A stretch of 64,000 bases of DNA from Candidatus Brocadia sp. WS118 (GTDB taxonomy: Bacteria; Planctomycetota; Brocadiia; Brocadiales; Brocadiaceae): NCBI GenBank assembly GCA_007618135.1, contig PHFX01000155.1:1-64000 (forward strand), given 5' to 3'. The notes beneath the pieces are model-generated. The model saw nothing but the letters and a program-made list of their open reading frames with translations. It had not been told where the DNA came from and searched no databases. The position numbers and the translations under genes are program-made. Below are positions 59,567 through 64,000 of the stretch, piece by piece (position 1 is the first letter of the stretch; each line of letters begins with the position of its first letter).

Positions 59567-61300
59567 ATGCACATCTATCCCACAGACGAAGAAGTTGAAC
59601 TTGCTGCGGAACTACTCGTCAACAAATACGACGTCTCCGCTCAGCTCTTGGGGCAGCTCTTTGATATAGAACAACGCGATCAGGCCAACGCAATCCTACA
59701 ATCGCTTGGTGCCAACCGTTTAACAGTGCTTGATGTTGCGCGGCTTCTAGTCCAGCGCGAAGGACCAGGTCTGTTCGCGGGAAGTTTAGACGTGACCCGC
59801 AAGTTGCGTCTGCACCTTCTCGAAAAACTTTCCGACAACGAGGTGCAGACTCTGTTTGACAGATATCGAGAAGCTAACAGCAACATCTCGTGCTCGTCAC
59901 ATATGCGAAAGAGACTAGCCAAAATGAACTGGCACTCTGGCAAGCATTGGGCCAACGATTTCGTCAGGGTACTTGGTTTTCCGGCGATTTTCGCGGGCAT
60001 CGTCCAAGAGGAAAAAGTCCCGACGATCAAAGATGTTCCTCCGTTAAAGGTGCCGCCTAAACTGGCTGAGTTCCAAGAAGCATTGAAAAAGCGGATGCTA
60101 GAAGTTCTTGAACGTGATGGTGTCCGAATGCGTTGCGTGGTAACACTGCCGACTGGCGGGGGCAAGACGCGTGTCGCAGTTGAGGCATTCATTGATTGGA
60201 TGCAACCTCGCTTCGACGATGGCAAGTATCTCCTCTGGGTGGCTCAGAGCGAAGAGTTATGCGAGCAAGCGATTGCCTGTATCGAGCAAATGTGGGGTTC
60301 ACGGGAATTTATCGCGCAGTTGCGAATCTATCGTTTTTTTGACGGACGCAATATACCTGTGGACGAACTTCGTGGCGGTGCTGTGGTTGCAAGCATTCAG
60401 CAGCTTCATAACCGGATCAAAGCAGATGACAAGGCGCTGGAGTCGATTCTAAGGGACACAGGAGCTATGATCATTGATGAAGCACATCGGGCTATATCGC
60501 AGATGTACGACACATTATTGGATCGGGCCGAGGTGCTTTGCGGAAGCGACCTCTTCCCAGTCTGCGGTCTCACAGCGACGCCTGGGCGTGCGGGCCTTTA
60601 TCGCACCCAAGAAACCGACAAACTTGTCGGCCGGTTTGAGGCTTACCTCATTAAGCCGGAACTGGGCGTACAATACGATGATAATCCACTAAAGTATTTC
60701 CGCGAGCATGGGTTTCTCGCTAAGGCGCATCACGTTCTGTTTCTTTCGGGCAGGGAATACACCCTCACAGACGAGGAAGTAGATGATATGCAACGAGTGG
60801 ACGACTTGTCAGCGGGGTTCTTGAAGCGATTGGCAATGGACAAAGAGAGAAACCTTTGGATCGTTCGCAGACTTCTTGAGTTGCCAAAAGCCACATCTAC
60901 CCTTCTCTACGCTTGCACCGTAGAACACGCTTACTTTCTTTCGGTCATCCTTACAGCCCAAGGCCGGAGGGCAAATGCACTATCCGCTGACACGCCTGCT
61001 ACCTTGCGCCGCTTACTTGTCCGCGATTTCAAGGAACAGAAGCTTCAGTTCCTTTGCAACTATGGCGTACTGACCACCGGCTTCGATGCTCCCAAGACTG
61101 AGTGCATCGTGCTGTGTCGTCCCACGACAAGCGAAGTGCTCTATGAACAAATCATCGGGCGGGGACTCCGCGGTCCTCAATTCGGTGGCACTTCGGAGTG
61201 TACGATAATCGATTTCGCTGACAATATCCAGCGCCTTGGTCCTCCGCTTGCTTACACCCGTTTTAAAGACTTCTGGAGTGACGAGAAGACCGTGGAATAA
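59567..61300 (+). CDS. stand-alone DEAH-box SF2 helicase, restriction/defence type
   Basis: A 577-residue protein. Residues 1-150 form a helical N-terminal domain of unknown type. The SF2 core follows: Walker A LPTGGGKTRV (about 194-203), DEAH (304-307) in MIIDEAHRAISQ, GLTATPGRAG (motif III), GVLTTGFDAPKTECIV (motif V) and QIIGRGLRGPQFGG (motif VI). Close to RadD-like and restriction-type helicases. No nuclease motif is seen. GC content is higher than the flanks, suggesting transfer. It lies on the same strand as, and 276 bp before, the methyltransferase; they may or may not form one system. Confidence 0.85.
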   Translation: MHIYPTDEEVELAAELLVNKYDVSAQLLGQLFDIEQRDQANAILQSLGANRLTVLDVARLLVQREGPGLFAGSLDVTRKLRLHLLEKLSDNEVQTLFDRYREANSNISCSSHMRKRLAKMNWHSGKHWANDFVRVLGFPAIFAGIVQEEKVPTIKDVPPLKVPPKLAEFQEALKKRMLEVLERDGVRMRCVVTLPTGGGKTRVAVEAFIDWMQPRFDDGKYLLWVAQSEELCEQAIACIEQMWGSREFIAQLRIYRFFDGRNIPVDELRGGAVVASIQQLHNRIKADDKALESILRDTGAMIIDEAHRAISQMYDTLLDRAEVLCGSDLFPVCGLTATPGRAGLYRTQETDKLVGRFEAYLIKPELGVQYDDNPLKYFREHGFLAKAHHVLFLSGREYTLTDEEVDDMQRVDDLSAGFLKRLAMDKERNLWIVRRLLELPKATSTLLYACTVEHAYFLSVILTAQGRRANALSADTPATLRRLLVRDFKEQKLQFLCNYGVLTTGFDAPKTECIVLCRPTTSEVLYEQIIGRGLRGPQFGGTSECTIIDFADNIQRLGPPLAYTRFKDFWSDEKTVE

Positions 61301-61576: not shown

Positions 61577-64000
61577 ATGGCGAAGGGAAGAAGAAAACAG
61601 GCTAATCAATCAGACCAAACTGAAGCAAAGACATATCGCCATTCTGAGGCGGATGCTCCTTTACGTCCGGATGTTGGCACGCAGGCGCAGTTCAGGAAGA
61701 AAAAGCCCCCAAAAACTTACCGCTATGATTCTTCACTTTCGCCAGCATTGGATTGGGACGGACAAAACTCTGCACGTGAGCTGGGCGAGTGGCTTATTGC
61801 CATGATTGAAAAGGCGGCTGCGCTTCCAGCGCCACATACCTTTGATAAACCCCAGGAATTCAGGAATTCCGCAGGACATGTTATTTCCACCGTCAGGGGA
61901 CTGCATGATGCCGTGGAGCTGTTGAAATGTCTCCAAAGGCCTTTTCTCAACTGGACGGGTAAGGCAGAGCGGCTTTCCTTTGATGTGCCGACGCTCCCGC
62001 TCTTTGTCCATGAGCGTCTCTCCACGAAGGCAATTATTGAAACACTTAAAAGCCACAAAAAACAAGAGAAGGTCAAACAATTGCCCTTGTTTGAACTCTT
62101 TGGCGATCCTCAAAGGCCGGTTAGCGATCAGGTACTTAAGGCATACGAATACCGGGACAAGTGGGTGAATCGCATGATCCTCGGCGATTCCCTTGTCGTA
62201 ATGAACTCACTCTTGCATTACGAAGGACTTGGTGGACAAGTGCAGATGATTTACTTTGACCCGCCTTACGGCATCAAATTCGGCAGCAACTTCCAGCCGT
62301 TTGTGCGTAAACGCGATGTGGGCCATAATGATGATGAAGACATGACCCGTGAGCCGGAGATGGTAAAGGCTTACAGGGATACGTGGGAATTGGGACTGCA
62401 TTCATATCTTACATACATGCGTGACCGTTTGCTTCTTGCACGTGAATTGCTTACGCCAACAGGCAGTGTCTTTGTTCAGATAAGTGATGAGAATTTGCAT
62501 CATGTAAGAGAAATAATGGATGAGGTGTTTGGTACAGAAAACATGGTGGCGGTAATTCCATTTAGAAAGAAGACAATGCCGCTGGGTACAAACTATGCCG
62601 AGCAAATGGCTGACTTCAATGTATGGTATGCAAAACAAAAATTTGATCAACAAGGGAGACCTTGTGCTAAATATCGACAATTATATCGTCAGGTACCAAT
62701 GGAACCCGATGACAATTTCAAATACATTCAGCTGTTAAATGGAACACGTAGGGAGCTTTCGCGTGAAGAGAGACTTGATCACAATTTAATTCCTTCAAAA
62801 GCAAGACTCTATCGACTCAAATCACTTGAACCATCAGGACCAATGCCATCTGGCATGTTTAGACCAATCTTTGAGGGAAAGGAATACGATTATCCTAAAA
62901 ACGGTTATGCTACAGATCCGGAGGGATTAAATCGGTTGATTGCTCAAAAGAGAATACAACCATTGGGGCGATTGCTGAATTATGTCTTATTTTTAGATGA
63001 TAAACCATGTAGTGACTTAACTATTCCATGGTATGACACAGCTGGTGCTGATGACAAATCATATGTTGTTCAAACTAGCTCAGTAGTTGTTAGGCGTTGC
63101 ATCCTCATGACCACTGACCCAGGCGATCTTGTGCTCGATCCGACCTGTGTGCGGGAGGGGACAAAGGTTTTGACACCAAGCGCCGTTCCTACCCCCCTTA
63201 ATCCCCCCGTAAACGGGGGGAAATCAGATGATACTGTAAACGGGGGGAGACTGGCGGTGTCCGTAACCGGCGGGAAGTTGTCTGTATCCACAAAAGTAAG
63301 GACACAGGGAAATGCGGAACGGACGCGGGAAAATCCTGAAAGAGCTGCTCCGGCGTATCCCTCCCCATCTCCCCCCGTTTACGGGGGGACACAGGGGGGT
63401 ACGGGGATGTCCGGGGTTGGATTGACTCCCATAGAATCCCTCAAACCAGGCGACTACGTCTACTCCCACGACGGCGCACCACATCGAGTCATACGCACGA
63501 TAAAAAGACGCTATCACGGTATAATGGTTGGCATTCGACACAAATTATCACCTGACACACTCTGGCTTACCGAAGACCATCCTGTCCTTGTAAAAACCAG
63601 ACGCCACGCCTTTGGCCACCGGCGGGACTGGAGTCATGTCCCGAATGTTGTCTTTGCAAGGGCAAGAACCCTGCGCAAGGCAATGACTCCTTACGAACGC
63701 AAATTATGGTCGAAATTGCGGAATGAACAACTCGGAGTGAAGTTTCGCCGGCAGCATCCCGTTGGTCAGTATATCGCTGACTTTTACTGCGCAGAGCATT
63801 CTTTAGTCGTTGAAATAGATGGAAATTCTCATTTTTCAGACGAAGGGACAAAACACGATATTGCACGAACAGCATATATGCAAAATGCAGGGCTTGGGGT
63901 GCTTCGGTTTACGAACATCGATATTCAAAAAAATATCGGTGGGGTGGTAGAGCGCATACGGATGGGAATCGGCAAGGGTACTGAAAACTGTCCTGAAGAT
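61577..64000 (+). CDS. site-specific N6-adenine methyltransferase (type III Mod-like) split by an intein; runs off the right edge
   Basis: A beta-class amino-methyltransferase: DPPYG (motif IV, Asp228) precedes motif I. Residues 1-523 form the N-extein, with N-terminal helices (ARELGEWLIAMIEKAA), a target-recognition part and LVLDPT, the start of motif I (residues 518-523). Family members continue CGSGTTA; here Cys524 begins an intein instead. The family normally pairs with BPTD_3080-like Res proteins, of which a broken one lies at 49469-52454. GGGG seven bases upstream supports the start. The frame is open to the window end (808 codons seen), so the C-extein with the rest of motif I lies outside. 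Confidence 0.9.
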   Translation, partial: MAKGRRKQANQSDQTEAKTYRHSEADAPLRPDVGTQAQFRKKKPPKTYRYDSSLSPALDWDGQNSARELGEWLIAMIEKAAALPAPHTFDKPQEFRNSAGHVISTVRGLHDAVELLKCLQRPFLNWTGKAERLSFDVPTLPLFVHERLSTKAIIETLKSHKKQEKVKQLPLFELFGDPQRPVSDQVLKAYEYRDKWVNRMILGDSLVVMNSLLHYEGLGGQVQMIYFDPPYGIKFGSNFQPFVRKRDVGHNDDEDMTREPEMVKAYRDTWELGLHSYLTYMRDRLLLARELLTPTGSVFVQISDENLHHVREIMDEVFGTENMVAVIPFRKKTMPLGTNYAEQMADFNVWYAKQKFDQQGRPCAKYRQLYRQVPMEPDDNFKYIQLLNGTRRELSREERLDHNLIPSKARLYRLKSLEPSGPMPSGMFRPIFEGKEYDYPKNGYATDPEGLNRLIAQKRIQPLGRLLNYVLFLDDKPCSDLTIPWYDTAGADDKSYVVQTSSVVVRRCILMTTDPGDLVLDPTCVREGTKVLTPSAVPTPLNPPVNGGKSDDTVNGGRLAVSVTGGKLSVSTKVRTQGNAERTRENPERAAPAYPSPSPPVYGGTQGGTGMSGVGLTPIESLKPGDYVYSHDGAPHRVIRTIKRRYHGIMVGIRHKLSPDTLWLTEDHPVLVKTRRHAFGHRRDWSHVPNVVFARARTLRKAMTPYERKLWSKLRNEQLGVKFRRQHPVGQYIADFYCAEHSLVVEIDGNSHFSDEGTKHDIARTAYMQNAGLGVLRFTNIDIQKNIGGVVERIRMGIGKGTENCPED
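63146..64000 (+). other. intein (Hint domain) with an inserted DUF559/Vsr-like nuclease, 3' end outside the window
   Basis: Starts at Cys524 of the host frame. Block A is CVREGTKVLTP; IESLKPGDYVYSHDG continues the Hint fold; block B is LWLTEDHPVLV with Thr665 and His668 (TxxH). Residues about 699-795 are a DUF559 domain: TLRKAMTPYERKLWSKLR, FRRQHPVGQYIADFYC, VVEIDGNSHFSD, with Asp735, Glu746 and Asp748 as likely metal ligands (PD-(D/E)xK/Vsr-like). Most inteins carry LAGLIDADG nucleases, so this is an unusual type. Blocks F and G (His-Asn) must lie beyond 64000. The insertion point is the invariant Cys of DPT-CGSG. Confidence 0.88.
63188..63403. repeat. in-frame GC-rich palindromic element inside the intein
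   Basis: About 216 bp. The left arm (63188-63220) reads CCTACCCCCCTTAAT then CCCCCCGTAAACGGGGGG; the right arm (63371-63403) is its near-exact inverse, CCCCCCGTTTACGGGGGG then ACACAGGGGGGTACGG. It is translated as a Pro/Gly-rich spacer (NPPVNGG...PPVYGG) of about 72 residues between intein block A and IESLKPGD. Frame is kept. Confidence 0.85.

Follow-up and report, generated by a model that had tools for sequence, protein, structure and literature searches.

A stretch of 64,000 nucleotides from Candidatus Brocadia sp. WS118 (the window) ends within a gene for a type III DNA methyltransferase (Mod), and our analysis confirms that motif I of this Mod is interrupted by a complete intein. The intein harbors a nuclease domain of the DUF559 family. 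We favor the reading, at a probability of roughly 75%, that it is a mobile, self-splicing intein that employs DUF559 as its homing endonuclease and has spread between Mods of Planctomycetota and Cyanobacteriota. Splicing and DNA cleavage are both inferred here, as no data are available for either.

The intein and its host methyltransferase

The contig from which the window derives (G000:C58) is 74623 bp long and extends beyond position 64000. Its translation yields one open frame of 1280 codons, running from 61574/61577 through the window edge. At 63146 the Mod frame reads LVLDPT and then CVREGTKVLTP; past the edge it continues as ...VWLMADKLQTGD...YVYDLEVEGAHSFLTNVCAVHN, followed by CGSGTTAYVAEQWGRRW, where the extein resumes. 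The intein thus spans contig positions 63146-64174 and ends with the residues AVHN, after which comes CGSGTT. A C-extein of ~410 aa follows CGSGTTAYVAEQWGRRW. The features of the locus are listed below; positions beyond 64000 refer to the contig.

59567..61300, + strand: helicase gene (ResIII/Helicase_C; PF04851, PF00271) upstream of mod; its best PADLOC match is a type IV restriction model
61577..63145, + strand: N-extein of the type III-like (beta-class) Mod, ending in LVLDPT at the start of motif I (PF01555 N6_N4_Mtase, 81.2 bits; PADLOC MTase_III, E 1.4e-137)
63146..64000 in the window, to 64174 on the contig, + strand: intein, 343 aa (frame read-through; TIGR01443; same-site homologs in B. 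carolinensis and five cyanobacteria)
63146..63178, + strand: intein block A, CVREGTKVLTP, with the nucleophile Cys1 (C1, R3, G5 and T6 invariant in an alignment of seven inteins)
63190..63401, + strand: REP-like unit, 212 bp, in-frame in the first Hint loop (the palindrome CCCCCCGTNNACGGGGGG is contained in both of its inverted arms, 63190-63224 and 63367-63401)
63419..63595, + strand: Hint motifs N2 (IESLKPGDYV) and N3/block B (TEDH, 63569-63580), from an alignment with SufB inteins and the KlbA intein 2jmz (E 6e-8)
63656..63961, + strand: DUF559 (Vsr-like, PD-(D/E)XK), putative homing endonuclease (PF04480, 108.7 bits, cut-off 20.6)
63779-63781 (Asp), 63812-63820 (ExD) and 63830-63832 (His), + strand: predicted catalytic residues of DUF559, invariant in seven inteins
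65404-68556 on the contig: ResIII (Res-type) gene in one long frame, downstream of mod

A first-pass annotation of the window had proposed an intein with DUF559 at the motif I cysteine of a methyltransferase, had expected a His-Asn followed by CGSGTT beyond position 64000, and had held that the absence of a C-terminal splice block and of CGSG would refute the idea. The extended contig supplied the predicted junction and the refuting case did not occur. The proposal is borne out by the complete frame, by HMMs and by orthologs with an empty site. The latter came from the suggested comparison with inteinless Mods: an uninterrupted LDPTCGSGTT is found in three Mods of the Brocadia group (G003, G005 and G026), whose N-exteins are 67-70% identical to that of the window, and in a paralog within the window genome (C263). 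Furthermore, seven cyanobacterial mods display the empty site as LDxTCGSGTT. Candidatus Brocadia carolinensis (AYTS01000026.1) has an intein at the identical Mod residue, 74% identical to ours. Homologs at the same site in independent genomes rule out chance, an assembly error or a truncated gene.

The PADLOC match, the adjacent Res gene and the motif order, with DPPY (motif IV, 62258-62269) preceding the GxGTT of motif I, identify the host as a type III Mod of the beta class. Its specificity region (window 62600-63070; compare L031, L032 and L033) is nearly unalignable between alleles, the flanks being far more alike. Between the two Brocadia Mods that bear the intein, this region is 35% identical and the N-terminal 340 residues are 85% identical, and on this basis the Mod systems appear to swap target recognition. 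In type III systems, restriction as well as modification needs Mod. Failed splicing should therefore disable both activities and not expose the cell to Res, which leaves the earlier suggestion that unspliced Mod would expose unmethylated DNA doubtful.

The seven Mod inteins can be aligned over the entire Hint and DUF559 domains, with C1, T142, H145, W288, G297-D298, H332, H342 and N343 among the invariant residues. All class 1 splice residues are present, i.e., Cys1, the TxxH of block B (TEDH), His342-Asn343 and the Cys+1 of CGSGTT. Profile searches, likewise put forward in the first-pass annotation, agreed in part: PF04480 matched, as did TIGR01443 for the intein C-terminus (29.5 bits in the window precursor, cut-off 15.6; exceeded also in 5/5 cyanobacterial precursors scanned), but TIGR01445 for the intein N-terminus stayed below its cut-off (13.1 bits against 24.5). 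PF14890 (Intein_splicing) also fell short, at 26.3 bits (E 7e-6, cut-off 35.8). Both shortfalls can be explained by the two inserts, repeat and DUF559, which split the Hint domain. The first Hint loop of the window intein carries ~80 extra residues, and the section from block A to the next Hint motif (~63176-63418) is REP-like repeat DNA and not intein core, a point absent from the first-pass annotation. When the intein profile was compared to the PDB, residues 70-110 and 116-165 of the KlbA intein matched on either side of DUF559, the Mtu RecA intein matched on its C-terminal side, and 3hrl matched inside the DUF559 section. An AlphaFold2 model of the B. carolinensis intein (14 alignment rows) was poor, with a pLDDT of 48, and was not used. 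From the splice residues we infer, without splicing data, that the precursor would splice itself and restore CGSGTT.

The DUF559 nuclease and its position in the Hint domain

In all seven Mod inteins, DUF559 resides between Hint motifs N3 and N4. The first-pass annotation had placed DUF559 in the stead of LAGLIDADG; the nuclease itself is confirmed, but it does not occupy the usual endonuclease position, being located before N4 and not after it, where LAGLIDADG is found in the related SufB inteins. Downstream of N4, the Mod inteins have the short spacing of a mini-intein, lengthened only in G674 and G681 by a repeat insert, and no LAGLIDADG motif was found between N4 and the C-terminal block. 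Our inference from these alignments is that a mini-intein may have gained its nuclease at an unusual site, in a loop that does not normally carry the endonuclease.

The nuclease active site is intact by sequence, with D212, E223, D225 and H229 invariant in 7/7 inteins. The DUF559 profile matched the PDB entry 3hrl with an E-value of 1.2e-24, and the same search, read up to an E of 1, returned only 3hrl and PvuRts1I and no sequence similarity to the I-Bth0305I (EDxHD) type. The domain comprises only ~105 aa and shows no recognizable extra DNA-binding module. In a phylogenetic tree, the DUF559 domains of the inteins cluster on a single branch with moderate support (80/91), separate from the DUF559s inserted in restriction-modification (R-M) genes, and no repeats are found at their borders. 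Elsewhere in the window genome, a DEAD/MZB helicase of 1745 aa (L010 5253-10487; G000:C240) carries a C-terminal nuclease domain of the DUF559 type.

The nearest Hint domains in our genome-contig scan belong to SufB inteins of cyanobacteria, Latescibacterota and others (L085-L090; 40-49% over N2-N3). They share the class 1 splice residues with the Mod inteins, but reside in another host protein, carry LAGLIDADG after N4, and have neither DUF559 nor a hairpin repeat in the first loop. Inteins within DNA methylases are known from actinophages, where they are horizontally mobile and encode a LAGLIDADG endonuclease (Gosselin et al. 2023, PMC9957025). They resemble the window intein in being mobile and in their methylase host, and differ in the endonuclease and in that the phage hosts are known as orphan methylases (PMC9957025). 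Vsr-type (EDxHD) homing endonucleases such as I-Bth0305I have also been described (PMC3943268, PMC12350094). These enzymes share the Vsr/PD-(D/E)XK nuclease type with the intein DUF559 and are used for homing, but are elongated, mostly of phage origin and equipped with extra DNA-binding regions (PMC3943268), and I-Bth0305I was not matched by the DUF559 profile in the PDB. Free-standing DUF559 proteins (3hrl, Caulobacter VsrA) have the PF04480 domain in common with the intein but are not within one; DUF559 has been described as Vsr-like in Caulobacter, and the same paper discusses VsrA as an endonuclease of mismatch repair (PMC12907096). One report on Thermosynechococcus sp. TA-1 mentions, within a single paragraph, inteins and a DUF559 gene that is assigned to EDxHD (PMC9403480); the inteins it lists are in dnaE, nrdJ, gyrB and gmd, and it describes no DUF559 intein in a methyltransferase. 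We found no description of a DUF559 intein endonuclease in the literature searched, and an earlier account in Dassa 2009, in Taylor 2011 (Vsr-type homing enzymes) or in the intein databases is not excluded.

Distribution, selection and signs of mobility

Among 392 genomes of the window's phylum, Planctomycetota, no further case was found beyond the window and B. carolinensis. A profile built from the two Brocadia inteins was positive in five of 386 cyanobacterial genomes (G731, G666, G430, G674 and G681); all five inteins are in Mods, each with a conserved motif on one side and CGSGTT on the other. When the 386 genomes were searched for DNA encoding HN followed by CGSGTT, a pattern blind to DUF559, exactly these five were returned, which means that every intein at that site in the sample carries DUF559. 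No such intein was found in 247 genomes of Acidobacteriota. Viral contigs searched with the intein and with DUF559 and intein profiles contained no DUF559 intein; matches to the HN-CGSGTT pattern there were primase-like zinc fingers (12/13) and one short frame. Phages and plasmids searched by tblastn held DUF559 only, without a recognizable surrounding intein, a long phage match (MT835756) being an alignment overrun. As judged from this distribution, the insert family looks like a mobile one that jumps between phyla.

DUF559 is under purifying selection: between the window and B. carolinensis its dN/dS is 0.096, next to 0.13-0.18 for the Hint domain and 0.97 for the repeat tract. Most of the exteins lie at 0.03-0.12, while their recognition region and the 24 codons adjoining the insertion site reach 0.34-0.35. 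The dS of the intein is similar to that of the host gene, so this Brocadia pair gives no indication of recent homing. The comparison of G674 and G681 gave an intein dS of 0.102 (bootstrap 0.059-0.154) and an extein dS of 0.228-0.362; with the intein dS well under that of the exteins, movement of the intein most likely postdates the split of the hosts. Moreover, G666 and G430 have inteins that are 59% identical, in Mods from different Mod groups that share only 23% identity, and the window and G731 display the opposite pattern (intein 47%, Mod 65%). The dS contrast and the incongruence between inteins and Mods are signs of horizontal homing, at the level of sequence comparison. A serine codon that reads TCN in the two Brocadia alleles with the intein and AGY in the empty ones was dropped as a mark of co-conversion because TCN also occurs in some cyanobacterial empty alleles.

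Within the family of G681, the intein is borne by G681, G674, C1 of G843 and a copy of G847 that is split over two contigs; the mod genes of G548, G814, G819 and C4 of G843 are empty. At the intein-bearing locus of G843 (L140, G843:C1), mod has in-frame deletions and a late stop and the intein is intact; the same genome also has the intein-free mod.

Hairpin repeats, alternative explanations and implications

The REP-like unit in the first Hint loop is closed by an inverted repeat of 35 nt (89%), in which two copies of CCCCCCGTNNACGGGGGG stand head to head, and its DNA fold has a z of -5.8. The palindrome gave 103 matches in the window genome with up to 2 mismatches, against 0 for the reversed control, and both arms belong to a dispersed repeat of ~30-45 bp as judged by blast. 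The first Hint loop of the other 6/6 Mod inteins also contains GC hairpins, which conform to C6-N6-G6 exactly or almost exactly; the genomes concerned contain 137, 87, 80, 30, 6 and 1 copies of C6-N6-G6. SufB inteins have merely one or two residues at this position. Repeat peptides of this kind also occur in-frame in the methyltransferase outside the intein, as VNPNTPSSLLSPTRGEG on the window contig beyond 64000 and as the insert IVFPANLVNGKSTPLSPPVNGGR...GVGEP in the Mod C-extein of B. carolinensis (L031). Near a mod fragment of a relative (G002) lies an IS200-like (Y1) transposase (L048 3-941) that resembles REP-associated transposases and would be a rival to DUF559 as a possible mobilizer of the hairpins.

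Long DUF559 frames in genomes of the order Brocadiales were rejected as inteins, since they are Hsd genes with an in-frame DUF559 and no Hint domain. These modules are bounded by hairpin repeats and lie in HsdR, at two reciprocal sites, in HsdM and in HsdS:

L035 2309-6088, L036 232-4083, L037 553-4359: in-frame DUF559 modules, HsdR site A
L038 988-5070, L039 2272-6192, L041 1437-3992: in-frame DUF559 modules, HsdR site B
L040 1021-3594, L043 1415-3190: further in-frame DUF559 modules of the HsdR/HsdM/HsdS set

In the DUF559 tree, the domains from HsdS, HsdM and HsdR site A group in a single clade (99/97); the HsdR site B domains make up a second clade, whose neighbor is a free-standing gene from the window genome. 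At free-standing DUF559 loci (L053-L080), and also on human-gut contigs labeled as phage (L081-L082), GC-rich hairpin repeats are far commoner in the flanks of the DUF559 frames than farther away in those loci. For the free-standing genes, GC stems were found in 79% of near versus 22% of far flanks (p 7e-16, which is optimistic as related loci are not independent). We tentatively propose, without much confidence, that DUF559 and GC-hairpin (REP-like) repeats might be partners in an undescribed mobile element, the units of which would insert in-frame with a preference for R-M genes. One such pair would have been captured by a mini-intein, with the nuclease becoming a homing endonuclease and the hairpin being kept in the Hint loop of all seven.

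In the homing intein that we favor, the precursor would splice autocatalytically and thereby restore CGSGTT in motif I. DUF559, before or after splicing, would cut intein-free mod alleles at the LDPT/CGSGTT codons, and recombinational repair would copy the intein into the cut gene. The origin probably lies in a single entry of a free-standing type of DUF559 into the N3-N4 loop of a mini-intein, and the resulting element would then have spread among Mod genes, non-orthologous ones included, of both phyla. The weak point is specificity, given such a small nuclease domain without an added DNA-binding module. The missing sign of recent homing in the Brocadia pair, the moderate support for a single intein DUF559 clade and the poor AlphaFold model also count against homing. 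Conceivably, the intein splices but its DUF559 is no homing endonuclease: the module would have inserted in-frame by its own action and be kept for another reason, such as its own mobility, repair or helping Res. The repeat-bounded modules without Hint in the Hsd genes of the same order and the non-canonical position within Hint speak for this; we nevertheless consider it unlikely, because the intein DUF559s branch apart from the R-M-inserted ones, lack border repeats and are present in 7/7 inteins at one site, in two phyla and with mobility at the level of the whole intein.

It is harder still to regard the insert as dead, either as a Hint/DUF559 fragment that disrupts mod or as an intein-like bacterial domain without ligation activity. 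All splice residues are in place, Cys+1 included, the exteins of intein-bearing alleles are under purifying selection, and the Res-type gene follows in one long frame. The ~80 aa that the repeat tract adds are confined to a loop, although this addition, the N-terminal intein model below its cut-off and the damaged mod of G843 would fit decay. We thus see little room for this explanation, and retain the homing intein as our preferred reading.

If correct, DUF559 would add a Vsr-like nuclease family, as well as a new attachment point in the Hint domain, to the repertoire of intein-borne homing endonucleases. The intein family targets the SAM-binding motif I, which is common to many DNA methyltransferases, and this would account for the jumps from one Mod to an unrelated one and from phylum to phylum. 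For the DUF559 domain, which is widespread and mostly of unknown function, a possible use would be indicated, and a repair-type nuclease that has become selfish could be studied in a tractable example.
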